Source: Clostridia bacterium
GTDB taxonomy: Bacteria; Bacillota; Clostridia; Christensenellales; Aristaeellaceae
DNA: 64,000 nt
NCBI GenBank assembly: GCA_017395685.1
Contig: JAFQOD010000028.1
Span: 1-64,000 of the forward strand
Direction of reading: 5' to 3'
In this document: piece by piece, positions 48,685-64,000 of the stretch
How the letters are laid out: every line of letters begins with the position of its first letter
Position numbering within the stretch: position 1 is the first letter of the stretch
Made by a program: the position numbers and the translations under genes
Notes under the pieces: model-generated
What the model was told of the DNA's origin: nothing
What the model saw: the letters and a program-made list of their open reading frames with translations, nothing else
The model's database searches: none

Positions 48685-49446
48685 TTATTTGCAGTTCGCA
48701 AAGCTGAATCTGGGCGTGGAACTGACCTGATGCAGCCAGTAATCCAGCTTTTCCAGCTGTTCATTTGTTCCCTGGCATTGGAAAAATGCTGCGCCCTCAC
48801 AGCCGCATACACCGCCGCCGGCCACAAGATAGGGCTGCGTACCGGTCAGCGCCCGGATAGCATCCAGTTCCGTATAGGCCATGCCTACAGAGGGGGCCAG
48901 ACGAAGGCCGATGGCCTCGGCGCTGTTCACAATCTGGCACAGCTGATGAATGGGCTGCTCCACCCGCTTTTCCACGCCCACCGGCACAATCACCCGGACT
49001 CTCCTGCCCACCGCGGCCCGATAAATGGGGCCCATGGTGCCGGAAGTAGGATTGCCCGCCAGAATGGCAGATTGGCCCGTAGCCAGATGAACGGCATTGG
49101 CGCCCTTGAAAATGATATCACCTGCACGCATCCCATCTGCCAGATCATGAATGGTCTTGCCGCGGATGCGCTGCCCCTTGCTGATCACCACATCCCCTTC
49201 CAGTTTGCCCAGGGATTCAGGAATACCCTCCCTGCGGATAATACCCCGGAAGAAGCGGTATTTTTCAAAATCGGTATCCCCGATACGGGCCAGCAGCGCT
49301 TGTGCAAGATAAGCATTGGTGGTGCCTGCCACCACCAGCACGGTATGCTTTTCCATGGCCTCGACGACGGAGGCATCCTGGGCCAGCGCCAGGGCAATCA
49401 ATTGCTTGCCGGCAGAAGGGGAAAGAAAAATCTGCTTGGATTTCAT
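48685..49446 (-). CDS. Conserved-looking protein of unknown function closing the CoA/biotin operon
   Basis: A 253-residue soluble protein I cannot place. It begins [20 protein letters not shown] and is rich in glycine turns and small hydrophobics: [66 protein letters not shown] and [15 protein letters not shown]. These suggest an alpha/beta fold with a phosphate- or nucleotide-type loop and a cysteine pair near the end (CGC). Its ATG overlaps the biotin-carrier stop, so it is tightly tied to the carboxyl-transfer genes. It could be a catalytic partner or a CoA/acid-handling enzyme; neither is shown. Confidence 0.7.
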
Positions 49447-49826
49447 TCCTGGGCACCTCCGATTACCGCCGCCACCTGACCCGCGCGGAGAAGATCCCCT
49501 GCCTGTACGGGCAGGCTTTCCACCACGCCGTCAAAGGGGGCGTATAATTCATTTTCCATTTTCATGGCTTCCACGGTCACCAGCAGATCGCCTGCCTTCA
49601 CCGTATCCCCTTCCTTTACCCATACCTTCACCACTTTCCCGGGCAGGGGCGTTGTCACCTGGCCATCCAGGGCAGCCGGCCGGCAGGGCCTGGGGGTATA
49701 GCGGGGGGCCTTGGGAAGCAGTGCCGCCTGCAGAATATCGGTTAAGGATTCCTGATGCTCCGGATGAGAAATACATTCCATCGTCAGGCGGTACATTCTA
49801 CCCTGATGCTGAAATTCATATACCAT
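49443..49826 (-). CDS. Biotin carboxyl carrier protein
   Basis: A 127-residue biotin carrier of the acyl-CoA carboxylase/decarboxylase gamma type. The C-terminal biotinyl domain (about 57-124) reads [21 protein letters not shown], then [15 protein letters not shown], with K89 the biotinylated lysine. The N-terminal 40 residues ([18 protein letters not shown]) are a docking-like segment, and a short Pro/Arg-rich linker joins them. In decarboxylases it shuttles CO2 from the transferase to a membrane subunit; in carboxylases from biotin carboxylase. Neither partner is in this operon. Ribosome site GGAGG. Confidence 0.93.
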
Positions 49827-49835
49827 AGAATCCTC

Positions 49836-51377
49836 CTACACAGGCATGTTGCCATGCTTTTTGGGCAGCTGCTCCACCTGTTTATTTTCCAGCGCCTTCA
49901 GGCAGCGGATCAGCACCCGCCGGGTTTCCGAGGGCAGGATGATCATATCCGTATATTCCCGGGCGGCCTTGCGGTAAGGATTGTTGAAGGCCGCTTCATA
50001 CTGGGCCGTCAGTTCGGCGCGGGTGCGGGCGGGATCATCCGATGCGGCAATTTCCTTGCGGAACACAATGGCCGCTGCCCCGGCTGCCCCCATCACAGCG
50101 GATTGAGCTGTGGGCCAGCTGAGCACCACATCCGGGCCCATCCCCTTTTCGCACATGCAGGCGGAGGCGCCACCGTACATTTTCCGCATGGTCAGGGCAA
50201 TCTTGGGAACGGTGGCATTGGCAACGGCATACACCATCTTTGCGCCATGGCGCAGTACCCCCGCATACTCCTGATCCACCCCCGGCAAACACCCGGGCAC
50301 ATCGGATAAAAATACCAAAGGAATGCCAAAGGCATCGCACAGATTGACGAACTGGGCCGCTTTATCCGCCGCATTCATATCCATGCTGCCTGCTTTATAC
50401 AGCGGCTGATTGGCGATGAAGCCCACGCTTCTGCCATTGAGCCGGGCAAGAGCCACCACAATATTCCGGGCAAATTCAGGACGGATTTCATAATAGAAGC
50501 CATCATCTGCCATCAATTCAATCACCCGGCGCACGTCAAATACCTTGCGGCTGTCCTCCGGGATGATGGTATCCAGTTCGGGCACCAGCTTATCAGGATC
50601 CTCGCTGCAGCGATATACCGGCGGCTTTTCCCGGCAGTTATCGGGAAAAAAGCTGAGCATCAGCTTCAGCTGCTCAATGCAATCGGCGTCATCCGCCGCC
50701 ACCCTATGGCATACACCGGAAATACGGCTGTGCACCCGGGCGCCGCCCAGGGCCTCATCATCGATCACTTCGCCGGTAACGCTTTTGACCACCGCAGGGC
50801 CGGTAACGAACATGCGGCTGGTGCCATCCACATTGATAATAAAATCCGTCAGCGCAGGGGAATAGGCGCCGCCGCCTGCACAGGGGCCCATGATGGCTGA
50901 AAGCTGGGGAATATAGCCGGAGGCATAGGCGTTCAGCCGGAAAATATCCAGATACAGCTTGGTATCATTGCCTTCCTGAATGCGGGCGCCGCCGCTGTCA
51001 TTGAGGGCAATGATGGGCTTGCCTGCCCGGATGGCTTCCTCCATCAGCCGGACGATCTTGATACCGTGCATTTCCCCCAGGGAGCCGCCCACCACCGTGG
51101 CGTCCTGGGCATAGGCATATACCACCCGGCCATTTACGGTACCAAAGCCCGTCACCACACCATCCGCCGGGGCATCCACCTTATCCATGCCAAATTCCGT
51201 GGCGCGATGACGGACGAACAGGCCGTATTCCATAAAGCTGCCCTGGTCAAAAAGCAGATCCAGCCTTTCCCGGGCCGTCAATTTCCCTTTTTCATGCTGC
51301 TTCTGAATGCGGGCTTCGCCCCCGCCCTGAAGCAGTTTTTCTCTTTTCGCAAGGAATTCCTCATTGGGAGTGCTCAT
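49836..51377 (-). CDS. Acyl-CoA carboxyltransferase subunit (PccB/MmdA type)
   Basis: A 513-residue carboxyltransferase that moves carboxyl groups between biotin and a CoA thioester (propionyl/methylmalonyl-CoA-like). Both crotonase-fold halves are complete: KLTARERLDLLFDQGSF, GGARIQEG, GPCAGGGAYSPALTDF in the N-terminal half; FIANQPLYKAGSMD, FLSDVPGCLPG, KMYGGASACMCEKGMGPDVVLSWPTAQSAVMG in the second. The start at 51377 follows GGAGG. Coupling with a CaiB transferase and a biotin carrier suggests that a CoA ester from the kinase/aldolase pathway is carboxylated or decarboxylated; the exact substrate is unknown. Confidence 0.94.
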   Translation of the reverse strand: MSTPNEEFLAKREKLLQGGGEARIQKQHEKGKLTARERLDLLFDQGSFMEYGLFVRHRATEFGMDKVDAPADGVVTGFGTVNGRVVYAYAQDATVVGGSLGEMHGIKIVRLMEEAIRAGKPIIALNDSGGARIQEGNDTKLYLDIFRLNAYASGYIPQLSAIMGPCAGGGAYSPALTDFIINVDGTSRMFVTGPAVVKSVTGEVIDDEALGGARVHSRISGVCHRVAADDADCIEQLKLMLSFFPDNCREKPPVYRCSEDPDKLVPELDTIIPEDSRKVFDVRRVIELMADDGFYYEIRPEFARNIVVALARLNGRSVGFIANQPLYKAGSMDMNAADKAAQFVNLCDAFGIPLVFLSDVPGCLPGVDQEYAGVLRHGAKMVYAVANATVPKIALTMRKMYGGASACMCEKGMGPDVVLSWPTAQSAVMGAAGAAAIVFRKEIAASDDPARTRAELTAQYEAAFNNPYRKAAREYTDMIILPSETRRVLIRCLKALENKQVEQLPKKHGNMPV

Positions 51378-51390
51378 GATCTTTCCTCCG

Positions 51391-52566
51391 TCATTCAAAT
51401 GCCTTGGCGATTTCCTCTTCCGTCATATTCAGCAGCTGCGCCATCACATCATGGGTATCCTCACCCAGCGCAGGGGAACGGAACGCAGGCTGATAGGGCA
51501 TGCTCTGCATCTTGAGGGGGAAGCCCACTGTACGGAAGGTGCCCGCCTTGCTGTCCTCTACATCGATGAACATATCCCGGGCGATCAGCTGCTCATTCTT
51601 TGCCACATCGTCCACCTTGTTGATTTCACCAAAGGGCAGGCTATACTTGGCCATTACAGCGGCAGCCTCCGCCGTGGTCAGCGCGCTAAATACCGGCTGC
51701 ATGGCCGCATCCAGTTCATCCTTATTCTGATAGCGATCCTTTTGCTCCTTGAACCGGGGATCCTCATAAATTTCGGGATGGCCCAGGGCCTCCATCAGGG
51801 TTTTGAACTGGGCATTGGTGGGGCAGCATACCATGATGCTGCCATCCTTGGTGCCAAATTCCTGGAAGGGAGCGGAAATGGCATGCCGATTTCCCTGGGG
51901 AACGGGCACGATGCCATTCACATTATATCTTGCGATTTCATTGACCATCACGGAAGCCGCCATGGCATCCAGCATGGATACATCCACAAACTGGCCTTCG
52001 CCTGTATTGGCCCTGTTCTGCAGCGCTGCCAGCACGCCGATGGCGCCGTAGAGCCCCGCCACCACATCGGCAATGGAGGTGCCCGCCTTGACGGGCTTTC
52101 CATTCTTTTCGCCGGTGATGCTCATAAACCCGGACATGGCCTGCACCGCAATATCCAATGCGCCCCGGCCGCTGTAGGGACCGGTCTGGCCGAAGCCGGA
52201 AATGGCCGCATAAATGATATCCGGCTTGATCTGCCGCAGGGCTTCATAATCCAGCCCGAATTTTTTCATGGTGCCGGGCTTATAATTTTCCACCACCACA
52301 TCGGAAATTTTGACAAGATTGATGAAAATTTCCTTCTGGCGGGGATCCTTCAGATTCAGTTCGATGCTTTTTTTGCCGCGGTTGCAGCTGACAAATTTGG
52401 CACTGGTGCCGCCCCGGGCCGGCGTTTCATTGCGGGTATCATCCCCGAAACCGGCGCGCTCGATCTTGATCACTTCGGCCCCCAGATCGCACAGCGTCAG
52501 GGTGCACATGGGGCCCGCCACAAACTGGGTCAGATCCAGAACACGGATACCTTCCAATGGTTTCAT
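51391..52566 (-). CDS. CaiB/BaiF-family (class III) CoA transferase
   Basis: A 391-residue CoA transferase that moves CoA between carboxylic acids. The nucleophilic aspartate is D167 (GTSIADVVAGLYGAIG). N-terminal block LDLTQFVAGPMCTLTLCDLGAEVIKIER, RGKKSIELNLKDP and VVVENYKPGTMKKFGLDY are classic for the class. AAAGGA precedes the ATG at 52566. Its place between an FGGY kinase and a carboxyltransferase implies that an organic acid made from the sugar is activated as a CoA ester. Donor and acceptor are not deducible. Confidence 0.94.
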   Translation of the reverse strand: MKPLEGIRVLDLTQFVAGPMCTLTLCDLGAEVIKIERAGFGDDTRNETPARGGTSAKFVSCNRGKKSIELNLKDPRQKEIFINLVKISDVVVENYKPGTMKKFGLDYEALRQIKPDIIYAAISGFGQTGPYSGRGALDIAVQAMSGFMSITGEKNGKPVKAGTSIADVVAGLYGAIGVLAALQNRANTGEGQFVDVSMLDAMAASVMVNEIARYNVNGIVPVPQGNRHAISAPFQEFGTKDGSIMVCCPTNAQFKTLMEALGHPEIYEDPRFKEQKDRYQNKDELDAAMQPVFSALTTAEAAAVMAKYSLPFGEINKVDDVAKNEQLIARDMFIDVEDSKAGTFRTVGFPLKMQSMPYQPAFRSPALGEDTHDVMAQLLNMTEEEIAKAFE

Positions 52567-52580
52567 CGATCTCATTCCTT

Positions 52581-54071
52581 TCAAAGAAGCTGCCGGCTGA
52601 TTTGATGATCCACCGGCATAAGCGCCTGCCGCGCGGAAAGAAAAATCTTTTTCAATTGCTGATAGCGATGGGCATTCTGTTCATCAGGAGGCGTCAGATG
52701 CTCCCCGCCGTGGAATTTCAGCACGGCATCATAGCCATCAAATACCCCTACCGCCTTCCCGGCAATCACCGCAATGCCCAGCGCCCCCGCATGGGCCGCC
52801 GCATCCGTGGTAACAATGGGAAGACCAAATACATCCGCCAGGATGCTGCGCCACATGAGGCTGTCGGCGCCGCCGCCCACCAGGCGGATTTTCTGAATAT
52901 TCAAAGGAGAATTGGCCTGCATAATGATTTTCAATATCAGATCCAGCTGCATGGCCACTCCCTCCGGAACGGCCCTGCACAGCTGGGCTGCCCCTGCAGA
53001 GGCGCTCAGGCCCAGGAAGGATCCCTTCAGCTGAGGATCCCAGAAGGGCGCCCTTTCCCCCATCAGATTGGGCAGAAACATCACCCCATCGGAACCGGGG
53101 GCCGTATGCAGCGCCATTTCGGCCATTTCATCATAGGAATAACGCAGAAGATTCTTCAGCCAGCTGAAGCTGAAGCCACCGGACTGCATGGTGCCGCTGT
53201 CCCTGAATCCATCCAGATACCGGATCTTGGCAATCCGCATCTGATCATCCAGCGAAGGCTGATTGGTAACGGAGCATACCCAGCTGGAAGTGCCCAGGCT
53301 GATATAGGTATCCCCTCGCTGGAATGCACCCGCGCCCAGGGTGGCAGCGCCGCCATCCCCTGTGCCCAGCACCACGGGGGTGCCGGCCCTGAGGCCGCAT
53401 TCCCTGGCCGCGTCCGCCAATATGCCCCCCAGCACCGTGCCAACAGGCAAAAGATCGGGCATCTTTTCCCGGTCAATGCCGGCAGCACCTATCAGCGCAG
53501 GGGACCAATCCGTTCCATTCAATTCCAGGGCGTGCATGAAGGCCGCCTCTTCCGGATCGGTGGCATAGCGCCCGGTAAGCTTGAGATTGATATAATCCTT
53601 AGCACTGAGGAAGCAATCGGTTTTTTTATATAGATCAGGCTGCTGCTGCCTGAACCTCTTCCATTTGGGCAGGGAATGATTGGGCGAAGGGCGCATCCCC
53701 ACCCGCCGGTAATATTCACCGGGCTGGAATGCCCCCTCCAATTCATCTGCCTGCTGCTGAGATCTTACATCTGCCCAGATTATGGCGGGGCAAAGGGGCC
53801 TGTCCCCCTGCACTGGCAGGCAGACCATCATCTGCCCGCTGAGGGAAACAGCCGCCACATCCCTGGAATCAATGCCCTCCATCAGGCTGCGGCTGGCCCG
53901 GCAGAAAGCCTGCCACCAATCAGCCGCCTGCTGTTCGGCCTTGCCCATGGCATTCGTATCCAATGGATAGCCCTGGGTCAGGGAACGGATAACGCCCTCT
54001 TCAGCCTCCACCAGAGTGGCCTTCAGGCTGGATGTGCCCAGATCATAAGCAGCAAAATAACGTTTTTTCAT
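52581..54071 (-). CDS. FGGY-family carbohydrate kinase (xylulokinase-like)
   Basis: A 496-residue sugar kinase of the FGGY family. Domain I starts YFAAYDLGTSSLKATLVE and has SLSGQMMVCLPV over the sugar site, where true xylulokinases read GQMHG; the ATP domain shows VLGTGDGGAATLGAG, ISLGTSSWV and LVGGGADSLMWRSILAD. The M-M in place of the usual M-H makes a substrate other than D-xylulose likely. It lies 14 bases before the CoA-transferase gene in the same transcript. The sugar is unknown; a ketose or polyol from the two dehydrogenases is plausible. Confidence 0.88.
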   Translation of the reverse strand: MKKRYFAAYDLGTSSLKATLVEAEEGVIRSLTQGYPLDTNAMGKAEQQAADWWQAFCRASRSLMEGIDSRDVAAVSLSGQMMVCLPVQGDRPLCPAIIWADVRSQQQADELEGAFQPGEYYRRVGMRPSPNHSLPKWKRFRQQQPDLYKKTDCFLSAKDYINLKLTGRYATDPEEAAFMHALELNGTDWSPALIGAAGIDREKMPDLLPVGTVLGGILADAARECGLRAGTPVVLGTGDGGAATLGAGAFQRGDTYISLGTSSWVCSVTNQPSLDDQMRIAKIRYLDGFRDSGTMQSGGFSFSWLKNLLRYSYDEMAEMALHTAPGSDGVMFLPNLMGERAPFWDPQLKGSFLGLSASAGAAQLCRAVPEGVAMQLDLILKIIMQANSPLNIQKIRLVGGGADSLMWRSILADVFGLPIVTTDAAAHAGALGIAVIAGKAVGVFDGYDAVLKFHGGEHLTPPDEQNAHRYQQLKKIFLSARQALMPVDHQISRQLL

Positions 54072-54092: not shown

Positions 54093-55118
54093 TCAGAAAG
54101 TGAGTGCCACCTTGGTGGCCTTCTTGCTCTGGGTGAGGCGGAAGCCCTCTTCGAATTCTTCCACCGGCATTACATGGGAAACGAAATCATCCAGATTGAT
54201 GGCCCCGCTGCGCACAAATTCCACCACCCGGTTATGCACCGCATGCTCTTCGGGGAAAGTGGGCTTCTGAACAAACTGGATGCTCCAGTTATAGGGGGCC
54301 TTTTCCCAATCGATTTCGGTGCAGGTCTTGGGGGAAATGCCGTATACGCAGATCTTGCCGTTGAATTTGATCACCTGGAAGCCCGTATTGATCAGGGCAT
54401 TGATGCCCACGGCATCGATGAAAAGATCCACCCCGGAAGGATAGATGGCACGCACGGCGGAAACCACATCCTGCTTGGCGGGATTGATCAGAATATCCGC
54501 CCCCAGGCGCTGCGCCTTTGCCAGACGCTCTTCATCCAGATCGCTGACGATCAGCCCATTGACGCCCAGCAGCTTGCAGAAACGCACCATAGCCTGACCC
54601 ACCGGGCCGCAGCCATTGATCATTACGGTTTTGCCTTCCTGCACGCCAAACTGATTGAGGGCACTGAACACTTCCTTCAGGGTGATGATCATCATTGCCT
54701 TGACAGGATCGATATCCGGGGGCACAATCTGCTCCGCCATATGGGAAAGGGGCACGCCCTTTTCCCCATCCTCTACCCGGGCGAAATAATCAGTTACCAG
54801 AGCACGCTCGGAAAAGCCGCCCCAGCCATGATAATATTTATCGGTATCCTTCAGCTTGGCACGCAGGACATAATCGCCCACCTTATAATTGCGCACCTTT
54901 TCGCCCACTGCAATGATCTTGCCGCAGGCCTCATGCCCCAGCACGCAGGGATAGGTATCAAAGCCCTTGAAATGGCCCTCAATTACCTTGGTATCCGTGC
55001 CATTGCAGATGCCGCAGGAAACTACCTGCACCAGTGCATCATAGGGGCCCATTTCCGGTTCCGGAATATCATAAACCAGCTGGAGCTTGCCAAGCTCCGG
55101 AACGATCAAACCCTTCAT
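54093..55118 (-). CDS. Zinc-dependent medium-chain alcohol/polyol dehydrogenase
   Basis: A 341-residue MDR dehydrogenase. The catalytic zinc ligands are C35 (VVSCGICNGTD) and H62-E63 (LGHEACGKII); the structural-zinc four-cysteine lobe is missing, as in several sugar/threonine-type members. The dinucleotide site is VMINGCGPVGQAMVRFCKLLG, and the acidic D in LIVSDLDEERL suggests NAD rather than NADP. MKGLIVPEL at 55118 was taken as the start; it overlaps the GH105-like stop by four bases. It probably oxidises a polyol or sugar acid in this pathway. Confidence 0.9.
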   Translation of the reverse strand: MKGLIVPELGKLQLVYDIPEPEMGPYDALVQVVSCGICNGTDTKVIEGHFKGFDTYPCVLGHEACGKIIAVGEKVRNYKVGDYVLRAKLKDTDKYYHGWGGFSERALVTDYFARVEDGEKGVPLSHMAEQIVPPDIDPVKAMMIITLKEVFSALNQFGVQEGKTVMINGCGPVGQAMVRFCKLLGVNGLIVSDLDEERLAKAQRLGADILINPAKQDVVSAVRAIYPSGVDLFIDAVGINALINTGFQVIKFNGKICVYGISPKTCTEIDWEKAPYNWSIQFVQKPTFPEEHAVHNRVVEFVRSGAINLDDFVSHVMPVEEFEEGFRLTQSKKATKVALTF

Positions 55119-56861: not shown

Positions 56862-56879
56862 AGGTGTCACTCCAATCTG

Positions 56880-57866
56880 TTATATTTCAAGCTGCGCCAT
56901 GGTGGCGGGCATTTCATGAGCGGTATTGACCTTGCCGGGGCCCACCGAAAGATCGAAGCAGGAGGCAATCAGTTTGCCCTGCCAGATAATCGGTTCGCCG
57001 GGCTGATCCAATTCACCGTTAAAGCCATCGGTATCAGGGCTCTGGGCCAGACGCTCCAGTTTTCCATCGGGCGTCATTTTTACAATGGCGTTCACCCTGA
57101 AATCAGCAATATACAGATTATCGTGTTCGTCGAAGATCATTCCATCCGTGCTGGTAAGCTCCTGCGGATCACGGGCGAAGGGAACATTTTCCTTCAGGCT
57201 TCCGTCTTCATTGAAGGTGATTTTATAAATTTCCCCGTCTCCGAAATTGCCAACGAACAATTCCCCTTTGGAGTTGAACGCAATCCCGTCAGCGCCATAG
57301 CGCCCGTTGAGATTCTGCGTGATAAAGGTAGCGAAAAGATGCTCATCCTCCAGCGTGTTCTTCACATGGATATCATGATCATCCAGGGCAAAGCGGTATA
57401 CCGCACTGATCATGCGGCCCTGTTCGTCGGGCACACGGGTCATCTTGCTCTGGGTTACATACATGTAATTGCCGCGGATCCGGATGCCGTTGGGATGTTC
57501 CATCTGATCCGCCACCACCGTGCAGGAGAGAATCTCGCCGGAAGGCGAAGCCTTGATCTTGAGCACCCGGCCCTTGAACTGCAGCGCAGGATCCTTCTTC
57601 CATCCCTGATTATCACAGATGTAAAGGTAGCCTTCCCTGTCAAATTCAATGCCCATATTGCGGGCCAGGCCGGTTTCGGGATGCACGGGAACATCAAACC
57701 ATTTGGTGATGCTGTGATCCTTTCCAATGCGGATCATGCAGCCGGAAAGATCATCCTGTGCATAATTGGGGCAGGATACAATCAGATCCCCATTCTGATC
57801 AATGGCCATACCATCGGGCGTGCAAACATATTCAGGCAGCAAAGCAAATAACGATGTATCTTTCAT
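56880..57866 (-). CDS. SMP-30/gluconolactonase-family protein
   Basis: A 328-residue six-bladed beta-propeller. Calcium-site residues fit the family: PEYVCTPDGMAIDQNGDLIV, EHPNGIRIRGNYMYVTQS, GADGIAFNSKGELFVGNFGDGE and STDGMIFDEHDNLYIADFRVNAIVKM. Members hydrolyse sugar lactones, so it would open a lactone produced by one of the dehydrogenases here. No signal peptide. AAAGGAGG precedes the ATG at 57866. First gene of the second unit of the cluster, just after the GntR-type operator. Confidence 0.92.
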   Translation of the reverse strand: MKDTSLFALLPEYVCTPDGMAIDQNGDLIVSCPNYAQDDLSGCMIRIGKDHSITKWFDVPVHPETGLARNMGIEFDREGYLYICDNQGWKKDPALQFKGRVLKIKASPSGEILSCTVVADQMEHPNGIRIRGNYMYVTQSKMTRVPDEQGRMISAVYRFALDDHDIHVKNTLEDEHLFATFITQNLNGRYGADGIAFNSKGELFVGNFGDGEIYKITFNEDGSLKENVPFARDPQELTSTDGMIFDEHDNLYIADFRVNAIVKMTPDGKLERLAQSPDTDGFNGELDQPGEPIIWQGKLIASCFDLSVGPGKVNTAHEMPATMAQLEI

Positions 57867-57892
57867 GGATATCCTCCTTTGGTTCATATATC

Positions 57893-57910
57893 ACAATGTC
57901 CTTACATTGT
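57893..57910. promoter_or_regulatory. GntR-type operator before the SMP-30 gene
   Basis: ACAATGT-CCTT-ACATTGT, a perfect 7-base inverted repeat starting a few bases after the predicted transcription start. Its core ATGTCCTTACAT (57896-57907) recurs as ATGTCTTTACAT at 62485-62496. Confidence 0.78.
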
Positions 57911-57917: not shown

Positions 57918-57946
57918 AATATAACACACTTTGCCCTGCCCGTCAA
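57918..57946 (-). promoter_or_regulatory. Promoter of the SMP-30/GntR/CoA-biotin operon
   Basis: Minus-strand TTGACG (57946-57941) and TATATT (57923-57918) with a 17-base spacer; start near 57911. Confidence 0.78.
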
Positions 57947-58021: not shown

Positions 58022-58696
58022 TCAGCGGTTGTTTGCCGCATCGCAGATCAGCTTGGCGGAGCGATAATTGATGCCAAAGCGGCTGACGCCCAGATCCAGC
58101 ATCCGATCCACCGTTTCCAGATTGCGGATGCCGCCGGCAGCCTTTACCCACACCTTGCCCTTGGCGGCCTTCATGATGGTTTCCACATGATGGATGGTGG
58201 TGCCCCCTTCCATGCCGGTGGCGCTCTTTACGCAATCCGCGCCGGAAGCAATCACCAATTCAACCGCCTTGATGATTTCCTCATCGCTCTGCAGAGGCGC
58301 TTCGATGATCACCTTCAGGGCATGTTCCCGGCCGATAGCGTCCTTTACGGTGCCGATATCCCGCACCACATCATCATACATGCCGGATTTGAAATAGCTC
58401 AGATTCATCACCATATCGATTTCCTGGGCGCCCAGATCAATGGCCCACTTGGCGCAGGCAGCCTTTACATGGGTGGGATCAGCGCCGGACCAGCGGCAGC
58501 AGCCGAAGCCGGGATTTACCCCGGAGCCCTTCAGATTTTCCACCAGGTAAGGGAAATAGCTTGCCGGGGCATTGATGGCAAAAAACTTATATTCCTTTGC
58601 CTGGGCAATCATTTCATCCACATCGCGCTTGGTTGCAAGGGTGGATACGTCCGTAGAATCGATCATCCTTGCCAGTTCACGACCATTCATTGCCAT
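58022..58696 (-). CDS. deoC: DeoC-like class I aldolase (deoxyribose-phosphate aldolase family)
   Basis: A 224-residue TIM-barrel aldolase. The Schiff-base lysine is K157 (ADCVKSATGMEGG), with D94 (QEIDMVMNLS) and K185 (WVKAAGGIRN) as the other catalytic residues. Classic DeoC splits deoxyribose-5-phosphate to acetaldehyde and glyceraldehyde-3-phosphate. The N-terminus (MIDSTDVSTLATKRDVDEM) and several pocket residues differ from nucleoside-salvage DeoC, and the sugar-acid context suggests another phosphosugar, so the symbol denotes the family rather than the pathway. GGAGAG ribosome site. Confidence 0.85.
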   Translation of the reverse strand: MAMNGRELARMIDSTDVSTLATKRDVDEMIAQAKEYKFFAINAPASYFPYLVENLKGSGVNPGFGCCRWSGADPTHVKAACAKWAIDLGAQEIDMVMNLSYFKSGMYDDVVRDIGTVKDAIGREHALKVIIEAPLQSDEEIIKAVELVIASGADCVKSATGMEGGTTIHHVETIMKAAKGKVWVKAAGGIRNLETVDRMLDLGVSRFGINYRSAKLICDAANNR

Positions 58697-58725
58697 GCTT
58701 TTCTCTCCTATCTTACTTATTTACA

Positions 58726-59202
58726 TTATTTCACAACAATCAGCGGCTGATCATCGCCGGAAAGCCGCCACAGCTTAGCATCATTTTCCCAGGTAGCCGC
58801 TTCGCTGAGAATCAGCACATGCACGGGCTGATCCTCCAGGGGGAATTGCCGGCCATGCACCACCCCGGGATGGAGATGCACCATGGTGCCCTTGGGAATG
58901 ATAAAGGCGTCAAACTGCTCCGGATCCGGTGTTTCACAGGGCTCGCCCACATAAATCACCATATCCCCATCCAGGGGCAGGCGCAGTTCCGATGTGGCGG
59001 CATGATATTCATACCAGGGGATCCTCATCTCGCAAGGGCAGGCATAGCCCACCGAGGCGCCCATTTCCGCCATCGGCTTCCATACCAGCCGATCGGGGAA
59101 GAAGGCGGACTGCAGATCCTTTCCCTGCTCCAGCATATTACAGAAATGGCCGTATTTGCTGAAATTCTCCTGGGTCAGTTCCTTTACCACAATCTTCTTC
59201 AT
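58726..59202 (-). CDS. AllA-like (ureidoglycolate lyase family) beta-barrel protein
   Basis: A 158-residue cupin-like protein. The start IVVKELTQENFSKYGHFCNML and the block FDAFIIPKGTMVHLHPGVVHGRQFPL match the ureidoglycolate lyase (AllA) family, whose enzymes act on short hydroxy-/ureido-acids. No purine-degradation genes are nearby; it lies between the permease and DeoC-like genes, so a sugar-acid or small-acid substrate is more likely. A GGGGTGATGGC context precedes the ATG. Confidence 0.75.
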   Translation of the reverse strand: MKKIVVKELTQENFSKYGHFCNMLEQGKDLQSAFFPDRLVWKPMAEMGASVGYACPCEMRIPWYEYHAATSELRLPLDGDMVIYVGEPCETPDPEQFDAFIIPKGTMVHLHPGVVHGRQFPLEDQPVHVLILSEAATWENDAKLWRLSGDDQPLIVVK

Positions 59203-59206
59203 GCCA

Positions 59207-60031
59207 TCACCCCTTTACAGAACCGGCGGCAATGCCCTTGATAAAGCTCTTGGAGAAAATGGCGAAGATGATCAGCAGGGGCAGCACGGCCCAGGTAAGC
59301 GCCGCCATGCGCCCGCCGATATCGAAGCGGAATTCCGAAATCAGATTGGATACGAACAGTGGAATGGTGAACATATCATTGTTGTTGATGATCAGCATGG
59401 GCAGGGTGTAATTATTCCAGGACCACATGAACAACAGAATGGAAATGGTGGACACCGCAGGAATAATGAAGGGGAACACCAGCGAAATCATGATGCGGGG
59501 CTCTGACGCGCCGTCGATCCGTCCGCTTTCGATGATTTCCATGGGCACGGAATCCTTCATGAACTGCACCATGAAAAACGCGGTAAAAGGATGGGCCAGC
59601 CAGGTGAATACCAGGGGCCAAAGGGTATTGGTCAGGTGCAGAACGCGCATTTCCATGATATAGCCGATGGTGCTGATCTGGCCGGGCAGCATCATGGTCA
59701 CCACGATCAGACCTTCCAGGAATTTGCGTGCCTTGAAGCGATACTTGGTGATGGCATAGGAAATCAGCACGCTGTTAAATGCACTGCCTACGATGGAGAA
59801 GATGGTTACAAAAGCACTGTTGCCATAGGTTCGCAGGAAGTTGCTCTGCAAAAGCGTCCGTGTATTTTCAAAAAAGCTGCTTCCAAACCAGAAGGGCAGG
59901 GTTTTCATCAATTCTTCTGTAGTATAGGATCCCATAACGGGCAGCACATAGAAGGGAAACAGGCAGATGAAAGAAATGATGGCAAAGAAGATAACCGTCA
60001 GAACCCGGATGATAATCTTGCTTACTTTCAT
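59207..60031 (-). CDS. Carbohydrate ABC transporter permease (MalG type)
   Basis: A 274-residue permease with six predicted helices, starting IIIRVLTVIFFAIISFICLFPF. The EAA loop reads PMEIIESGRIDGASEPRI, a slightly altered form, and the C-terminal FIKGIAAGSVKG is family-typical. It pairs with the MalF-type gene upstream (one-base overlap) and is followed by the AllA-like gene with a four-base gap. No ATPase gene is in the cluster, so a shared MsmX-like ATPase is expected. Confidence 0.92.
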   Translation of the reverse strand: MKVSKIIIRVLTVIFFAIISFICLFPFYVLPVMGSYTTEELMKTLPFWFGSSFFENTRTLLQSNFLRTYGNSAFVTIFSIVGSAFNSVLISYAITKYRFKARKFLEGLIVVTMMLPGQISTIGYIMEMRVLHLTNTLWPLVFTWLAHPFTAFFMVQFMKDSVPMEIIESGRIDGASEPRIMISLVFPFIIPAVSTISILLFMWSWNNYTLPMLIINNNDMFTIPLFVSNLISEFRFDIGGRMAALTWAVLPLLIIFAIFSKSFIKGIAAGSVKG

Positions 60032-60954
60032 CAGGCATCCGCCCCCTTTCTGTTGGAGATGCGCCTGGAAACAAATGAGAATACCAGAATAATCACAAAC
60101 AGAATGTAGCACAGCGCAGCGCCGTAGCCCAGCCGCATCTTATTGGCAAACGCATCATTGATGAATTTCCAGATGATGGTGTAGGCGGAATATCCGGGGC
60201 CGCCGGTGGCCGTGGTGGTGCCGGCATAGAGCTGCTTGGGAATTTCATAGAGCTGCATGCCGTTGATAATCGAGGTCATAATCAGGAAGATCGTCAGGTT
60301 ATTGAGCTGAGGCACTGTGATGCGGGAGAAAAGCTGCCATTCATTGGCGCCGTCAATCCGTGCCGCCTCATAAATATCAGGGGAAATGGCCGTCATACCA
60401 GCCATGTAGATTACCATGCAATAGCCAAAGTGGCGCCATACCTGCAGCATCACGATGATCATACGGGTCATGGTGGGATTCTGCAGGAAATAGATGCCTT
60501 CATCAATCAGACCGATACTGATCAGGAATTCGTTGATATAGCCGTACTGCCAGTCAAACAGGTTGGAAAAGATGGAACCGATGGCAATAGGGGCGATGAT
60601 ATAGGGAAGGAAAAATACCGTTTCGAATGCACGCTTGGTGCGCTTGAGGGAGAAAACCGCATTGGCCAGCACCAGGCCCAGAATGGTCTGGATCGGCACG
60701 GAAAGCAGCATGAACTGGATGGTATTCCAGATGGCTTTCCAGAACAGCTTATCTTTAAACAGCAGATCCCGGTAATTGGCCAGGCCCACGAAATTCATGG
60801 CCTTGATGCCATTCCAATCAAAGAAGCTGAGGAAGAAGGAATAGAAGGTGGGATACAGGGTAAAGGCGACATAACACAGCACGTAGGGGGCTGCAAGCAG
60901 GTATGGCCAAGCCTTGTGCATACTCTGCTTTTTGATTTTGATTGACTTGTCCAT
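60031..60954 (-). CDS. Carbohydrate ABC transporter permease (MalF/LplB type)
   Basis: A 307-residue permease. First helix AWPYLLAAPYVLCYVAFTLYPTFYSFFLSF, EAA loop DIYEAARIDGANEWQLF, and six predicted helices overall. It partners with the MalG-type permease and the binding protein encoded just upstream. The gap to the binding-protein gene contains a UUCG-capped hairpin, which probably sets the expression ratio. Confidence 0.93.
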   Translation of the reverse strand: MDKSIKIKKQSMHKAWPYLLAAPYVLCYVAFTLYPTFYSFFLSFFDWNGIKAMNFVGLANYRDLLFKDKLFWKAIWNTIQFMLLSVPIQTILGLVLANAVFSLKRTKRAFETVFFLPYIIAPIAIGSIFSNLFDWQYGYINEFLISIGLIDEGIYFLQNPTMTRMIIVMLQVWRHFGYCMVIYMAGMTAISPDIYEAARIDGANEWQLFSRITVPQLNNLTIFLIMTSIINGMQLYEIPKQLYAGTTTATGGPGYSAYTIIWKFINDAFANKMRLGYGAALCYILFVIILVFSFVSRRISNRKGADA

Positions 60955-60974
60955 AAGCCTCTCCTTCTTGGGCC

Positions 60975-61000
60975 CCGGCGCATCCCGAAGGATGCGCCGG
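60975..61000 (-). other. UUCG-tetraloop hairpin after the binding-protein gene
   Basis: On the minus strand CCGGCGCATCC and GGATGCGCCGG form an 11-base-pair stem capped by TTCG, the extra-stable C(UUCG)G tetraloop. No T-run follows. It resembles, in position, the hairpin at 2774-2803. Confidence 0.85.
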
Positions 61001-61018
61001 AGCGAATTTCGTTCCGAA

Positions 61019-62311
61019 TCAGAATACGTTGGCAGTGGGTTCGAGGAGCTGAACGTTCTCGATCACATAGTCAATCAGTTCCTGAGCGGTGAGGTTGGGG
61101 TTGATCATCATCTGCAGACGGGCATCCTTCACAACATTGCCCACGGTGGTGGTGTACTGGGTGAAGGTTTCGTAGGGAGCTACGTTGGTGCCGATCTTGT
61201 CATAGATGTAGGCGCAGATGTTCTGGCCATCATACCACTTGGAATAGAGGAAATCGCCGCGGATGGGGGAATTTTCGCCTTCATAGAAGCTCTTGAAGCT
61301 GGGGATCCAACCAATCTGTTCGTAGATGGAATCGTAGCCTTCAACAGTGCCCTTGAAGTACTTGATGAAGCCCCAGGCGCCTTCCTTGTTGGGGCTGTTC
61401 TTGTAGATGCCCTGAGAGGTGCCGCCGTTGAGCCAGCTGGTTTCGGGGCACTGGCAGAAGCGCCACAGGCCTTCGGTTACCTTTTCCTTGTCGTTGGAGG
61501 CAATGCAGCTGTTGGTGGACCAGGAAGCATGGTTGAAGAAGATAACGGTGCCATTGGTGTAGGCAGCGTTCCAGCTGGTGGAGTTCTTTTCATTCAGGCC
61601 CAGGGGCACGCCGGCATCCTGGATCTTCTTGGCGGTTTCGAAAGAAGCCAGATAACGGCCGGTGATGTCGATATCATCGCCGTCGATGAATTCAGCGTTG
61701 GTCTGGCCATGGATCATTTCGGCCAGGTCAGCGATGGACTGCATCATGAATACTTCGCCATTGGCAGCTTCCTTCAGCTTCAGGCCGGTAGCAATGAAGC
61801 TATCCCAATCCTTGATCAGTTCGTACACATCTTCGGGTTCGGTGACGCCGAAATACTTTTCGGTCAGGTCAACACGATACACGAAGCCGGAGGGGCAGAA
61901 CTGGTTATCCAGGGATACCAGGCGGCCTTCGGAATCCAGCAGGCCGGGCACAACGGCATCGATGATTTCGTTGCGGTCATAGTTGTAGGGATCGGCTTCC
62001 AGATCTTCCAGGATATCCATGGCGAACAGAGCGCCGCGGTTGGAAACTTCGCAGCTGACGATATCCGGCACATCCAGTTCGGAGGCAACAGCGCCCATCA
62101 GCTTGGTGAGGAAGTCGCCATTGTTAACCAGAACGTAGTCATATTCCAGTTCGGGGAAAACTTCGGCCACAACCTGCTTTTCATGCTTCATGACCTTTTC
62201 GCCCTGGCTCCATTCGATTACTTTGCCAGTGGGATTGTCGCCATACTCGGCCAGAGCAGCAGTGCTCATCATCATCATGACAACCAGCAGCAACGCAAAC
62301 AGTTTCTTCAT
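61019..62311 (-). CDS. Sugar ABC transporter extracellular substrate-binding protein
   Basis: A 430-residue exported binding protein with signal peptide MKKLFALLLVVMMMMSTAALA and no lipobox. The mature part has a family 1 layout: KVIEWSQGEKVMKHEKQVVAEVFPELEYDYVLVN (strand-helix start) and later SWNAAYTNGTVIFFNHASW and GIYKNSPNKEGAWGFIKYF. AAAGGA precedes the ATG. It is the first gene of the transporter unit, downstream of a promoter with a GntR-type operator. Ligand unknown; probably a uronide- or polyol-related sugar given the neighbouring enzymes. Confidence 0.9.
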   Translation of the reverse strand: MKKLFALLLVVMMMMSTAALAEYGDNPTGKVIEWSQGEKVMKHEKQVVAEVFPELEYDYVLVNNGDFLTKLMGAVASELDVPDIVSCEVSNRGALFAMDILEDLEADPYNYDRNEIIDAVVPGLLDSEGRLVSLDNQFCPSGFVYRVDLTEKYFGVTEPEDVYELIKDWDSFIATGLKLKEAANGEVFMMQSIADLAEMIHGQTNAEFIDGDDIDITGRYLASFETAKKIQDAGVPLGLNEKNSTSWNAAYTNGTVIFFNHASWSTNSCIASNDKEKVTEGLWRFCQCPETSWLNGGTSQGIYKNSPNKEGAWGFIKYFKGTVEGYDSIYEQIGWIPSFKSFYEGENSPIRGDFLYSKWYDGQNICAYIYDKIGTNVAPYETFTQYTTTVGNVVKDARLQMMINPNLTAQELIDYVIENVQLLEPTANVF

Positions 62312-62484
62312 CGTGTTTTCATTCCTTTCATTATTATCGTGTACGGGGGTGCATGTGCTCAGCGTGCACAGATGATTTTGATGCCGTTTCTTCTCCCTCC
62401 CTTTGGCACACAGTATAAAACCCATCTTTTTAACGCCTGCCGCACATGCGGCGCCTTCAATTGGAGACACCACAATGAGTAAAG

Positions 62485-62496
62485 ATGTCTTTACAT
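62485..62496. promoter_or_regulatory. GntR-type operator before the transporter unit
   Basis: ATGTCTTTACAT, identical at 11 of 12 positions to the core at 57896-57907 and likewise placed just after the predicted start. It is embedded in GTAAAG-ATGT-CTTTAC (62479-62494), and the overlapping ACATCATGATGT (62493-62504) is a perfect palindrome. Confidence 0.75.
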
Positions 62497-62508
62497 CATG
62501 ATGTATAT

Positions 62509-62537
62509 ACTATAACATCCGTCCAGCGGCTTGTCAA
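62509..62537 (-). promoter_or_regulatory. Promoter of the sugar transporter/AllA-like/DeoC unit
   Basis: Minus-strand TTGACA (62537-62532) and TATAGT (62514-62509) with a 17-base spacer. The 170 bases between it and the binding-protein start form a long leader with no other element I recognise. Confidence 0.8.
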
Positions 62538-62589
62538 CGCCATTTCAGGTTTTTTTCGTATTTTTTTGCCCATTTCATCCATCTCACAA

Positions 62590-62634
62590 GAAAAAAGCCG
62601 CCCCGGTGATGATCCCTTCATCCCCGGAGCAGCC
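62590..62634 (-). terminator. Terminator after the iron alcohol dehydrogenase gene
   Basis: On the minus strand GGCtGCtCCGGGGATG pairs with CATCaCCGGGGcGGC, followed by TTTTTT. Confidence 0.88.
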
Positions 62635-62646
62635 AATTGATGGTAA

Positions 62647-63822
62647 TTATTCCAATGCCAGGTAATAAATTTTCCTACAGTCCTCCGCATTCAGCGGAAC
62701 GAATTTTCCTACCGTTCCTCCCACCAGGGCGGCGCAATGGGCTGCCATCCGTTCAAAATCCCTGTCGTCAATCTGAATCTCCTTCAGACGGACGGGCATT
62801 TCCAGCGAGCGATAGAATGCTTCCAGCCGGCGGATGCCCTCCCGGGCAATCTCCTCCATCGTGCCCATCGATTCGGGCACGCCGAAAACCCGGATGGCGA
62901 ACTGTGCCAGCTTCTTTTCACCGCCCCGGGGCAGCACATATTTCATCCAGGCCGGGAATATGATGGCCAGCCCGGCGCCATGGGCAATATCATATACCGC
63001 GCTCAGCTCATGCTCCAGCTTATGGCTGGCCCAGTCGCCGATGCGCCCGGTCTGCAGCAGGGTATTATGGGCCAGGCTGCCTGCCCAGGTAATCTCTGCC
63101 CGGGCGTCATAATTTTCGGGTTCTGCCAAGGTCAACTGGGCGTTATTGATCACGGTGATCAGCGCCCCCTCGATCATCCGGTCCATCAGCTCCACATGCT
63201 CCACCTGGGTGAAATAACGCTCCATCATATGCGCCATGATATCCACAATGCCGCAGGCCACATGATATTTTGGCAGAGAAAAGGAATCCTCCGGATTGAT
63301 GATGGAGAATTTGGGGAAATTGAAGGGCACATTGCGGCCCACCTTGCACAGATCCGCTTCCCGGGTAATTACGCAGGAGCTGCTCATTTCACTGCCGGCA
63401 GCCGGAATGGTCAGAATGGTGCCAAGGGGCAAAACATGATCAATAACGCCCTTTCCGCAGAACAGATCCCACACATCCCCGTCATAGCATACGCCGTTTA
63501 CGATGGCCTTGCCGGTATCGATAGCGCTTCCGCCGCCCACTGCCAGCACCAGCTGCACATCATGCTCCCGGCACATTTCAATGCCCTTGTAAACCAGCGC
63601 CAGACGGGGATTGGGCTGTACGCCCCCCAGTTCCCATACATGGGCCCCCAGATCCAGAAGGATTTTCATCACTTTATCATATAAGCCGGTGCGCTTGATG
63701 CTGCCGCCGCCGTATACCAGCAGGATACGCTTTCCGTATTTTTCCACTTCCCCGCCCAGTTGATCCAGTGCATTTCTGCCAAAGTGAATCTTGGTAGGAT
63801 TCTGAAACGTAAAATCAATCAT
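62647..63822 (-). CDS. Iron-containing alcohol dehydrogenase
   Basis: A 391-residue group III dehydrogenase (BDH/YqhD-like). N-terminal FTFQNPTKIHFGRNAL, NAD(P) loop LVYGGGSIKRTGLYDKVMKIL, LVLAVGGGSAIDTGKAIVNG, and metal ligands in GIVDIMAHMMERYF and SHKLEHELSAVYDIAHGAGLAII. Such enzymes reduce aldehydes or oxidise polyols. GGAGGAGG precedes the ATG at 63822, which overlaps the end of the upstream gene. Its terminator separates it from the transporter promoter. Confidence 0.95.
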   Translation of the reverse strand: MIDFTFQNPTKIHFGRNALDQLGGEVEKYGKRILLVYGGGSIKRTGLYDKVMKILLDLGAHVWELGGVQPNPRLALVYKGIEMCREHDVQLVLAVGGGSAIDTGKAIVNGVCYDGDVWDLFCGKGVIDHVLPLGTILTIPAAGSEMSSSCVITREADLCKVGRNVPFNFPKFSIINPEDSFSLPKYHVACGIVDIMAHMMERYFTQVEHVELMDRMIEGALITVINNAQLTLAEPENYDARAEITWAGSLAHNTLLQTGRIGDWASHKLEHELSAVYDIAHGAGLAIIFPAWMKYVLPRGGEKKLAQFAIRVFGVPESMGTMEEIAREGIRRLEAFYRSLEMPVRLKEIQIDDRDFERMAAHCAALVGGTVGKFVPLNAEDCRKIYYLALE

Positions 63823-64000
63823 GGTTTTCCTCCTCCATCCCGTCACAGCCATATAATTTCATCGCATTGCGATACATCACATCACAAGCGGTTTCATAGG
63901 CCTGTTTTTCATCCATCAACCCTTTTTCAATATATCCCTGCAAAATCCGCTGTAGTCCCTGGCGGGCCAGACGGGCTGCCAGCCAGCTCATTTCCGGGAA
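63815..64000 (-). CDS. C-terminal end of an amidohydrolase-like protein (window edge)
   Basis: Only 61 codons are inside the window, ending ...ETACDVMYRNAMKLYGCDGM plus a short acidic tail, with the stop overlapping the dehydrogenase ATG. The pattern A-x-D-[VI]-M-Y-x-N-A-x-x-L-Y is typical of the last helix of metal-dependent amidohydrolases (Amidohydro_2/uronate-isomerase-like TIM barrels). The rest lies beyond the right edge, so the identification is tentative. It is co-translated with the iron dehydrogenase. Confidence 0.55.
   Translation of the reverse strand, partial: FPEMSWLAARLARQGLQRILQGYIEKGLMDEKQAYETACDVMYRNAMKLYGCDGMEEENHD

Follow-up and report, generated by a model that had tools for sequence, protein, structure and literature searches.

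A sugar-catabolic gene set joined to genes for a CaiB-type CoA transferase, a carboxyltransferase and a biotin carrier in a Clostridia bacterium

Introduction

In the fermentation of glutaconate and of malonate, CoA transfer is combined with sodium-pumping decarboxylation in an acid-in/acid-out cycle, in which CoA is recycled and a biotin carrier takes part. Loci with OadB may also contain CaiB-type CoA transferases. The locus L072 comprises genes for CaiB, a mutase, MeaB, an epimerase, a carboxyltransferase (CT), a carrier and OadB, and in L066 (Acidaminococcaceae) CaiB is placed past OadB at a distance of about 5 kb. We take L072, and in part L066, to be loci of the succinate-to-propionate type with methylmalonyl-CoA decarboxylase, and they offer a precedent for CaiB sharing a locus with a sodium decarboxylase.

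The window, which is the whole 64,000-nucleotide stretch of DNA that was analysed, comes from an anaerobic bacterium and contains a set of sugar and CoA/biotin genes, all on the minus strand. The cycle proposed below resembles glutaconate and malonate fermentation in its acid-in/acid-out character, its recycled CoA and its biotin carrier, whereas the cluster lacks a beta subunit, is joined to sugar genes and has an MmdA/PccB-like CT. As in the succinate-to-propionate type loci, CaiB, an MmdA-type CT and a biotin carrier stand in one locus; unlike them, the window has no OadB and none of the mutase, MeaB and epimerase genes of L072, its CT diverges in the acyl-pocket motif, and sugar genes are present. 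In Blautia parvula (L073) a CT likewise adjoins CaiB and is the neighbour of the window CT (82/88, flagged as a long-branch joining) in a tree that contained no propionyl-CoA carboxylase rows. The AMKM lysine motif of the window carrier is missing from the biotinoyl-like protein of that locus, and the other neighbours there, unlike those in the window, are a DcuC-type carrier and AMP-ligase-like and aldehyde-ferredoxin-oxidoreductase-like proteins.

Results

Arrangement of the gene set

All genes named in the original prediction were found on the minus strand, and their families were borne out by Pfam and NCBIfam profile matches; the list had missed the GntR-UTRA regulator and the Amidohydro_2 gene at the edge. 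The features are as follows.

63815..64000, minus strand: 3' end of the Amidohydro_2 gene (408 aa; whole gene C24:63815-65041; PF04909, 42.6 bits vs 26.4)
62647..63822, minus strand: Fe-containing alcohol dehydrogenase (Fe-ADH; start hand-picked, ORF to 63852)
62509..62537, minus strand: promoter-like site TTGACA-17-TATAGT (11/12, TG before the second hexamer)
62485..62496, minus strand: palindrome ATGTAAAGACAT, presumed GntR operator 1
61019..62314, minus strand: extracellular solute-binding protein, family 1 (start hand-picked at the signal-peptide ATG)
60031..60954, minus strand: ABC sugar permease A
59207..60034, minus strand: ABC sugar permease B (internal start hand-picked)
58726..59202, minus strand: AllA-like (ureidoglycolate lyase family) protein (PF04115)
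58022..58696, minus strand: DeoC-like aldolase (lysine motifs retained, GTSSG-type loop lost)
57918..57946, minus strand: promoter-like site TTGACG-17-TATATT (10/12, TG before the second hexamer)
57896..57907, minus strand: palindrome ATGTAAGGACAT, presumed GntR operator 2
56880..57887, minus strand: SMP-30/gluconolactonase-like lactonase (start perhaps at 57866, judging by relatives)
56106..56870, minus strand: GntR-UTRA transcriptional regulator (family profiles)
55115..56092, minus strand: GH88/GH105-like hydrolase (PF07470)
54093..55118, minus strand: Zn-dependent medium-chain dehydrogenase (Zn-ADH; internal start hand-picked, ORF to 55163)
52581..54071, minus strand: FGGY sugar kinase, SGQMM subfamily
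51391..52584, minus strand: CaiB-type (class III) CoA transferase (PF02515; Asp in SIADVVAG)
49836..51377, minus strand: biotin-dependent CT, MmdA/PccB type (PF01039; altered acyl-pocket motif)
49443..49826, minus strand: biotin carrier protein (Biotin_lipoyl with AMKM)
48685..49446, minus strand: protein of 253 aa without an assigned family

The 3' end of the Amidohydro_2 gene, which begins beyond the window edge, overlaps the start of the Fe-ADH gene. With some starts picked by hand, 9 of the 14 junctions overlap or are shorter than 15 bases, as had been said of most of them, and the remaining gaps are 332, 64, 29, 134 and 21 bases. The kinase and CaiB genes overlap by 4 bases, as do those for the carrier and the 253-aa protein; 13 bases separate CaiB from the CT, and 9 the CT from the carrier.

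The locus lies on a single contig of 106 kb (C24), and GC and GC3 are alike on both sides of the kinase-CaiB join. A recent foreign origin of the set was rejected, as GC and GC3 are in line with those of the surroundings. No plasmid match was found, and among viral contigs 32 stretches fitted a pattern, of which 0 were confirmed. A mobile element is located next to the locus, with an integrase beyond tRNA-Val on the side away from the cluster, and the GldG-type ABC gene that flanks it is a divergent copy, at 24-31% to the genomes of the genus.

Predicted regulation

Promoter-like sites in the region (13, against a shuffle mean of 15.0) are no commoner than chance, and only two of them carry TG before the second hexamer. 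Both are on the coding strand and each occupies one of the larger gaps, ahead of the solute-binding protein in one case and of the lactonase in the other, and the 12-base palindrome ATGTAARGACAT, which occurs twice in the 64 kb, starts 13 and 11 bases past them. Two hits at one mismatch or fewer were obtained in 0 of 100 shuffles, a count that is no independent test because the pattern was derived from the same two sites; among 240 loci the pattern was not found beyond these sites. The stricter pattern WATGTNNNNACATW is matched at the lactonase site only, and a match also turned up in 12 of 100 shuffles. The score of the lactonase promoter-like site is no better than that of two others, one of which, also on the coding strand, lies where the GntR gene starts. 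Terminator-like sites number 27 against 17.8 in shuffles, with some within the cluster on the coding strand.

The occurrence of the palindrome behind each of these two promoter-like sites suggests a pair of operons regulated together, and the second would extend from the lactonase through the kinase, CaiB, CT and carrier to the 253-aa protein. The view of the locus as a catabolic set whose layout hints at shared regulation is supported.

Genes of the sugar half

The lactonase matches PF08450 (58.2 bits vs 26.3) and the GH88/GH105-like hydrolase, a putative unsaturated glycuronyl hydrolase, PF07470 (66.0 bits vs 26.6); the resemblance of the hydrolase to a solved member is weak (E 0.00019). The AllA-like protein reaches 28.7 bits with PF04115 (cut-off 23) and just 24 of 160 with the NCBIfam ureidoglycolate lyase profile. 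The DeoC-like aldolase scores 163.5 bits with TIGR00126 (cut-off 117.3) and retains VKSATG and VKAAGG, the lysines of which we take to be the Schiff-base catalytic motifs, so that the Schiff-base lysine expected of a deoxyribose-phosphate aldolase is present. The GTSSG-type loop of that aldolase, presumably phosphate-binding, is absent and is replaced by GINYRSAK; the loop in other DeoC sequences reads GVGLESAV (G266), GTSSG (G240 and G139) or GTSNG (G054).

Xylulokinases carry QMHG at the kinase motif that was compared, which is presumably the one called altered in the original prediction. The window kinase does differ there, with SGQMM, but the same residues occur in 8 of the 9 aligned FGGY sequences (that of the window among the 8), the ninth having SAQMM; on this alignment the motif is a trait of the subfamily and not special to the window gene. 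Searches of solved structures with the solute-binding protein, the amidohydrolase and the Zn-ADH indicated no substrate.

Carboxyltransferase, CoA transferase and carrier

The CT matches PF01039 (Carboxyl_trans) with 591.5 bits and the MmdA profile TIGR01117 with 707 bits against a cut-off of 998.8, of which the CTs of OadB loci also fall short (916.5 and 932.1). Its acyl-pocket motif is GGASACMCEK, with GGAS where MmdA relatives have GGAY or GGSY (its altered residues S412 and A413 are numbered by the longer ORF to 51398). All 33 of the other CTs with a site located by the motif search carry GGAY or GGSY; two CTs that did not fit the search pattern, those of L073 and of contig C35, have GGAC and GAAY. 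Since the window motif is unlike all 33, the substrate may be quite different.

According to PMC5187497, a Phe marks CTs acting on acyl-CoA of four carbons or fewer, and this residue appears, from the alignment and the spacing from Tyr, to be F153 in the window CT, in keeping with the explanation preferred below. The selectivity position D422, given in PMC7835884, corresponds to A413. Position 100 and His143 are named for the engineered glycolyl-CoA carboxylase in PMC10729300, and a specificity of that kind is not supported for the window CT, where the retained Leu and Tyr appear, from the alignment offset, to be L107 and Y149.

The best solved-structure matches of the CT are named propionyl-CoA carboxylase beta (569 bits), and the match to glutaconyl-CoA decarboxylase chains is weak (89 bits). 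A housekeeping propionyl-CoA carboxylase role is argued against by the absent biotin carboxylase and the altered acyl-pocket motif. CaiB matches PF02515 (416.5 bits vs 23.3) with the features of a class III CoA transferase, including the Asp in SIADVVAG, presumably the nucleophile; its best NCBIfam match, NF052585 (succinate-glutarate CoA transferase, 319.8 bits), is below the cut-off of 750. The carrier has a biotinoyl domain with the AMKM lysine, as expected of a biotin carrier.

Discussion

The explanation that we prefer, tentatively and with slightly less than even weight, is a two-operon sugar regulon under one GntR repressor, to which a CaiB-CT-carrier decarboxylation module using an OadB encoded elsewhere is attached. 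Operon 1 would comprise import, the AllA-like protein and DeoC, and operon 2 the lactonase, regulator, GH105-like hydrolase, Zn-ADH, kinase, CaiB, CT, carrier and 253-aa protein. An imported glycoside would be opened and oxidised by the Zn-ADH, the lactone hydrolysed by SMP-30, and the product phosphorylated by the FGGY kinase and split by the DeoC-like aldolase; Fe-ADH may serve to reduce the aldehyde and keep the redox balance.

A sugar core of adjacent SMP-30 (56-63% identical) and FGGY kinase (39-40%) genes is shared with four other genomes of the order (G240, G011, G219 and G187), and Zn-ADH (42-45%) with the first three. Unlike in the window, the GH105-like, AllA-like, GntR and Fe-ADH genes were undetected in the stretches examined, as were CaiB, CT, carrier and the 253-aa protein; DeoC occurs at G240 only and, unlike that of the window, is of the canonical kind. 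The sugar core was present at 0 of 85 CaiB loci, and 5 of the 85 have CaiB and CT with no sugar half. Searches through CaiB, CT, the kinase, the 253-aa protein or the AllA-like protein found no close orthologue of the whole set, one CaiB search covering the best 80 of 269 relatives. Among 24 AllA-like loci with short flanks, three of them extended, Fe-ADH adjoins in G070 and G021:C31, an FGGY kinase is present in G070, and Zn-ADH and an FGGY kinase lie within about 10 kb at G021:C76 (66 and 112 bits); the remaining loci gave no match save the AllA-like gene itself.

Each part belongs to a known kind, but none of the other genomes searched was found to combine them in this way. The original prediction read the set as one linear pathway and named unlinked halves in all relatives as evidence to the contrary. 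The halves are apart in every relative examined, none of which has an orthologue of the whole set, and the linear reading is not supported. A reading in which DeoC-like cleavage of the oxidised sugar yields, directly or after oxidation, a malonate-type C3/C4 acid whose CoA ester is decarboxylated by CaiB, CT and carrier while a shared OadB pumps sodium, the 253-aa protein being a new enzyme of this sugar fermentation route and energy being conserved through biotin-dependent decarboxylation, is doubtful.

The same separation, in four genomes with the sugar core and in five loci with CaiB and CT, would fit halves that are co-transcribed but unrelated in their chemistry, the sugar being fermented while CaiB, CT and carrier handle a co-arriving acid such as malonate from a malonylated plant glycoside. 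A decorated glycoside fits the import genes and the GH105-like enzyme, but among the genes of the set none was recognised as an esterase, although the amidohydrolase and the 253-aa protein are without an assigned role. This alternative is rather unlikely, though the strongest of those weighed.

In the preferred two-operon explanation, CaiB would load a small dicarboxylic acid of the malonate type with CoA taken from the product acyl-CoA, and the CT would pass the free carboxyl group of that acid to biotin on the carrier, regenerating the acyl-CoA, so that neither ATP nor extra CoA would be needed. None of the genes present has an obvious part in making such an acid from a sugar. The window was correctly said to be without biotin carboxylase and membrane subunit: no beta subunit was found in it or in 15 kb to its right, and no beta or delta subunit within the cluster. 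Biotin carboxylase (PF02785) was not found genome-wide either, in a search positive in 13 of 14 control genomes, and the enzyme likewise went undetected in 88 of the 120 genomes examined from the family and in 50 of the 71 good ones. The partner that a propionyl- or acetyl-CoA carboxylase requires was not detected, and the alpha/gamma-linked beta subunit of a sodium-translocating acyl-CoA decarboxylase is missing. The suggestion of possible partners elsewhere is supported by two OAD_beta genes and an OadA on other contigs. Contig C35 has the order CT-OadG-carrier-OadB-OadA (OadG recognised by eye), and the copy on C63 has no CT or carrier within the 18 kb examined. Carboxybiotin would be decarboxylated with sodium pumping by an OadB from elsewhere, for which this orphan C63 copy is the best candidate.

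The C35 OadA exceeds its NCBIfam equivalog cut-off (740.5 vs 718) and, with no biotin carboxylase found in the genome, could instead serve transcarboxylation, in which the carboxyl group on the carrier passes to pyruvate to give oxaloacetate, or the reverse reaction makes malonyl-CoA. This is improbable, because C35 has its own CT and carrier, so that the window copies are not needed for a housekeeping role, and the location within a sugar set speaks against biosynthesis. That two adjacent operons without common regulation are chance neighbours or an assembly artefact is very improbable, even with an arrangement absent elsewhere among the genomes searched and an adjoining mobile element, given the four-base overlaps at the kinase-CaiB and carrier-253-aa joins, the similar GC and GC3 across the join, the single 106 kb contig, and an integrase past tRNA-Val on the far side.

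If the preferred explanation is true, CoA transferase, CT and carrier would form a minimal three-gene cassette, one that a sugar regulon can acquire and that borrows the sodium-pump subunit of the cell, a modular energy gain from decarboxylation. Within a family in which biotin carboxylase went undetected in 88 of 120 genomes, the acid accepted by the altered CT is a concrete target. The recurring lactonase-kinase-dehydrogenase sugar core of this order, for which a literature search by combined gene names found no publication, is also brought to notice.

The 253-aa protein at the end of the cluster was matched by no family of Pfam or NCBIfam at E 0.001 and gave nothing significant in profile searches, and its single-sequence structure model (mean pLDDT 32.4) has no usable fold. 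The closest matches, all short of significance, are the 6-phosphogluconate dehydrogenase NAD-binding domain, for 2 of 9 members of its family (E 0.0053), and chains of that enzyme over about 40 residues (E 0.027 at best), a hint that is weak but recurs.

Gene content and layout

Gene and family searches bore out the predicted minus-strand gene set, from 63852 down to 48685, and two genes that had not been listed were added: a GntR-UTRA regulator inside the cluster and an Amidohydro_2 gene at C24:63815-65041 (C24, the contig of the window), which starts outside the window. Most junctions are tight, as had been claimed: with the start codons judged likely, 9 of 14 overlap or are shorter than 15 bases, and the looser ones measure 332, 64, 29, 134 and 21 bases. 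The cluster genes have a G+C content of 0.50-0.58 and a GC3 of 0.58-0.72, and the base composition agrees with that of two other measured stretches of the contig (0.553 each). All parts are of known kinds, except a 253-residue protein at 48685-49446, and the combination is a new variation on these kinds. Searches of the open-access literature for the sugar genes and for the CoA half, which are a weak test, returned no description of the set.

A GldA/F/G-like ABC cassette with DUF4340 adjoins the cluster at 44006-48675. The genome encodes three GldG-like proteins, and the one in this cassette is matched by 27 of 28 other genomes of the genus at only 24-31% identity. Across the window edge, C24:65256-70391 (L013:5257-10392) contains tRNA-Val(GAC) and, after it, genes for a tyrosine integrase, an ArdC-like protein and a resolvase. 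These point to an integrated element that seems to start beyond the tRNA and apparently leaves the cluster outside.

Promoter-like sites and putative operons

Thirteen promoter-like sites are present in 47000-64000, which is no more than in shuffled sequence (mean 15.0), and only two have TG before the second hexamer. As listed below, each of these two is followed, after 13 bases (solute-binding protein) or 11 bases (lactonase), by the start of ATGTAARGACAT.

Promoter-like sites with TG and the palindromic sites that follow them
62537-62509, minus strand, promoter-like site before the solute-binding protein, score 11/12, in the 332-base gap
62485-62496, ATGTAARGACAT with palindromic arms, after the solute-binding protein promoter-like site
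57946-57918, minus strand, promoter-like site before the lactonase, score 10/12, in the 134-base gap
57896-57907, ATGTAARGACAT with palindromic arms, after the lactonase promoter-like site

The score of 10/12 is also reached at two other promoter-like sites, including a minus-strand one where the GntR gene starts, and terminator-like sites are scattered throughout the cluster. At up to one mismatch, ATGTAARGACAT occurs twice in the 64 kb and twice in 0 of 100 shuffles, counts that are not an independent test because the motif was derived from the two sites themselves. Among 240 loci, it matches only in the two containing these same sites, and the single match in L013 is the solute-binding protein's site. 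A stricter palindrome pattern finds one site only, as it does in 12 of 100 shuffles.

This evidence is suggestive of shared control. The layout suggests one operon of the solute-binding protein, two permeases, the AllA-like protein and DeoC, and a second of the lactonase, GntR, GH105-like protein, Zn-ADH, kinase, CaiB, carboxyltransferase, carrier and the 253-residue protein. The amidohydrolase and Fe-ADH lie ahead of both, and their upstream region is different, with no motif of the ATGTAARGACAT type. The arrangement of promoters and palindromes makes a somewhat better case for the originally observed cluster.

Linkage of the sugar and CoA halves

Kinase relatives (E ≤1e-75) are present in 30 of 297 genomes of the order, the cluster's own included. 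At the 29 other loci, scanned with flanks of about 1.5 kb, the lactonase adjoins the kinase in 4, a DeoC is present in 10, and CaiB or a carboxyltransferase was detected in none; in the nine with longer flanks, neither CaiB, carboxyltransferase, carrier nor 253-residue protein was detected. In four genomes (G240, G011, G219 and G187), the lactonase and kinase are 56-63% and 39-40% identical to those of the window, with a Zn-ADH at 42-45% in the first three; the contig of G187 stops soon past the kinase. Therefore, a lactonase-kinase-dehydrogenase core recurs in the order without the CoA half.

CaiB relatives were found in 5 of the 297 genomes of the order (E ≤1e-60) and in 3 of 150 relatives (E ≤1e-40), own genome included in both. 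Among named genomes, 269 matches were confirmed, and the 80 best were used, with a top identity of 45%. These 80, together with five loci of order and genus genomes scanned with flanks of about 1.5 kb, gave 85 loci of 4.1-21 kb, generic transporter and GntR matches being excluded. In none of the 85 (80 being the best 80 of 269) was a kinase, lactonase, DeoC, GH105-like or AllA-like protein detected at E ≤1e-8; two have weak Zn-ADH matches only, several kb off, and five have a carboxyltransferase (L063, L066, L067, L072 and L073). The sugar core is also missing from longer stretches of all five order and genus loci, and no CaiB lies within about 1.5 kb of 29 carboxyltransferase loci of the class.

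Among the genomes searched, the link between the halves is thus seen in this one only. The relatives give no support to the putative single linear pathway of the original prediction.

The lactonase-FGGY kinase core is seen in four stretches of the order (L208, L209, L210 and L211), with Zn-ADH in three and, nearby, a canonical DeoC once and a GH35/42-like protein once. The sugar half may have a distant parallel in genome G021 (C76; L141:233-10165), where an AllA-like gene has a Zn-ADH, an FGGY kinase and an ABC ATPase no more than about 10 kb away.

Carboxyltransferase

The window carboxyltransferase is 57% identical to its closest matches in the class, where 142 of 391 genomes, own included, have matches at E ≤1e-160, and a carrier lies near the carboxyltransferase in 28 of 29 loci. 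Among solved structures, its top matches bear the name propionyl-CoA carboxylase beta. In a maximum-likelihood tree of 36 carboxyltransferases, whose rows excluded true propionyl-CoA carboxylase, it belongs to no starred set of half the rows or fewer; it lies on a long branch, paired at 82/88 with Blautia parvula L073, a pairing flagged by the tree program as joining long branches.

The acyl-pocket motif is GGASACMCEK in the window protein versus GGAY or GGSY in all 33 other carboxyltransferases where the motif search located the site; those of L073 (GGAC) and of contig C35 of the same genome (GAAY) fall outside the search pattern. In the solved-structure alignment, A413 is the counterpart of D422 in S. 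coelicolor PccB, a residue that PMC7835884 reports to determine selectivity. PMC5187497 reports that the hexanoyl-CoA enzyme MccB also has Ala at this position, numbered 421, that Ala there in PccB allows longer chains to be bound, and that one Phe is universal in carboxyltransferases for acyl-CoA of up to 4 carbons. Judged by alignment and residue spacing, however, this Phe appears to be kept as F153, and we infer a small acyl group in an unusual pocket.

The Blautia parvula stretch (L073:4440-15992) encodes, in one direction, a DcuC-type carrier, the divergent carboxyltransferase, CaiB, a biotinoyl-like protein lacking the lysine motif, and AMP-ligase-like, Fe-S (by eye) and aldehyde-ferredoxin-oxidoreductase-like proteins.

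Biotin-dependent partners and CoA recycling

Biotin carboxylase (PF02785), detected in 13 of 14 control genomes, was not found in this genome. It was likewise not found in 88 of 120 genomes of the family, own included, or in 50 of the 71 of good quality; because the absence is so common, an assembly gap is unlikely. ATP-driven carboxylation is therefore unlikely in this assembly, which is 96% complete, and decarboxylation via OadB or transfer via OadA remain.

Candidate partners for both routes are encoded elsewhere. PF01039 has two matches in the genome, that of the window and one on C35, where one gene row (L014:10998-16645) encodes a carboxyltransferase, a protein that resembles OadG by eye, an AMKM-bearing carrier, OadB, and OadA above an equivalog cut-off. 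A second OadB on contig C63 (L015:7940-9073; TIGR01109, 421.6 bits vs 190.6) has a YunB sporulation gene and a NUDIX gene as neighbours, and neither a carboxyltransferase nor a carrier was detected in the surrounding 18 kb.

As the likeliest mode of action, CaiB and a biotin-dependent decarboxylase would form a self-sustaining cycle, in which the acyl-CoA remaining after decarboxylation would hand its CoA to the next acid molecule, comparable to the glutaconate, malonate and succinate fermentations. Such a cycle would fit the missing biotin carboxylase, the beta subunits elsewhere and the precedents of L072 and L066, where CaiB occurs together with an MmdA-type carboxyltransferase and OadB, whereas the OadB proteins of this genome lie on other contigs than the cluster. 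Its main mechanistic rival is transcarboxylation to pyruvate via OadA. If CoA recycling operates, the two halves could, as a guess, be joined by a malonate-type acid derived from the sugar or its substituent.

The failure to find biotin carboxylase in this genome and in 88 of 120 of its family also raises the question of the malonyl-CoA source for fatty acids; conceivably, the carboxyltransferase, carrier and OadA of C35 make it by transcarboxylation.

Other proteins of the cluster

The 253-residue protein has relatives, 27-44% identical (L003-L010), in 7 other genomes among 297 of the order, with two copies in G219, and no significant family match in Pfam, NCBIfam or profile searches. Its family is conserved, with invariant residues including GTTN and KGxNA, and has a weak local likeness to 6-phosphogluconate dehydrogenase. 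The gene surroundings are varied: when the eight relative loci were scanned in all reading frames over up to 20 kb each, no window genes other than ABC ATPases were detected. Therefore, this protein need not be an enzyme of the biotin pathway.

The best NCBIfam match of CaiB is succinate-glutarate CoA transferase, under the cut-off (319.8 vs 750), and its Asp within SIADVVAG presumably has the role known for CaiB. Where xylulokinases have QMHG, 8 of the 9 kinases aligned, that of the window among them, read SGQMM, and the one of G219 reads SAQMM.

The DeoC-like protein scores above the cut-off for deoxyribose-phosphate aldolase, and both of its lysine motifs are intact. The phosphate-binding GTSSG loop is lost both here and in the DeoC of G266 (49% identical). 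The two form one kind, and the substrate of the window protein may be other than deoxyribose 5-phosphate. The G266 protein, the closest DeoC relative seen, is encoded at L207:7160-11310 with an FGGY kinase and creatininase-family and ornithine-cyclodeaminase-family genes, a group that by its gene content would be another pathway.
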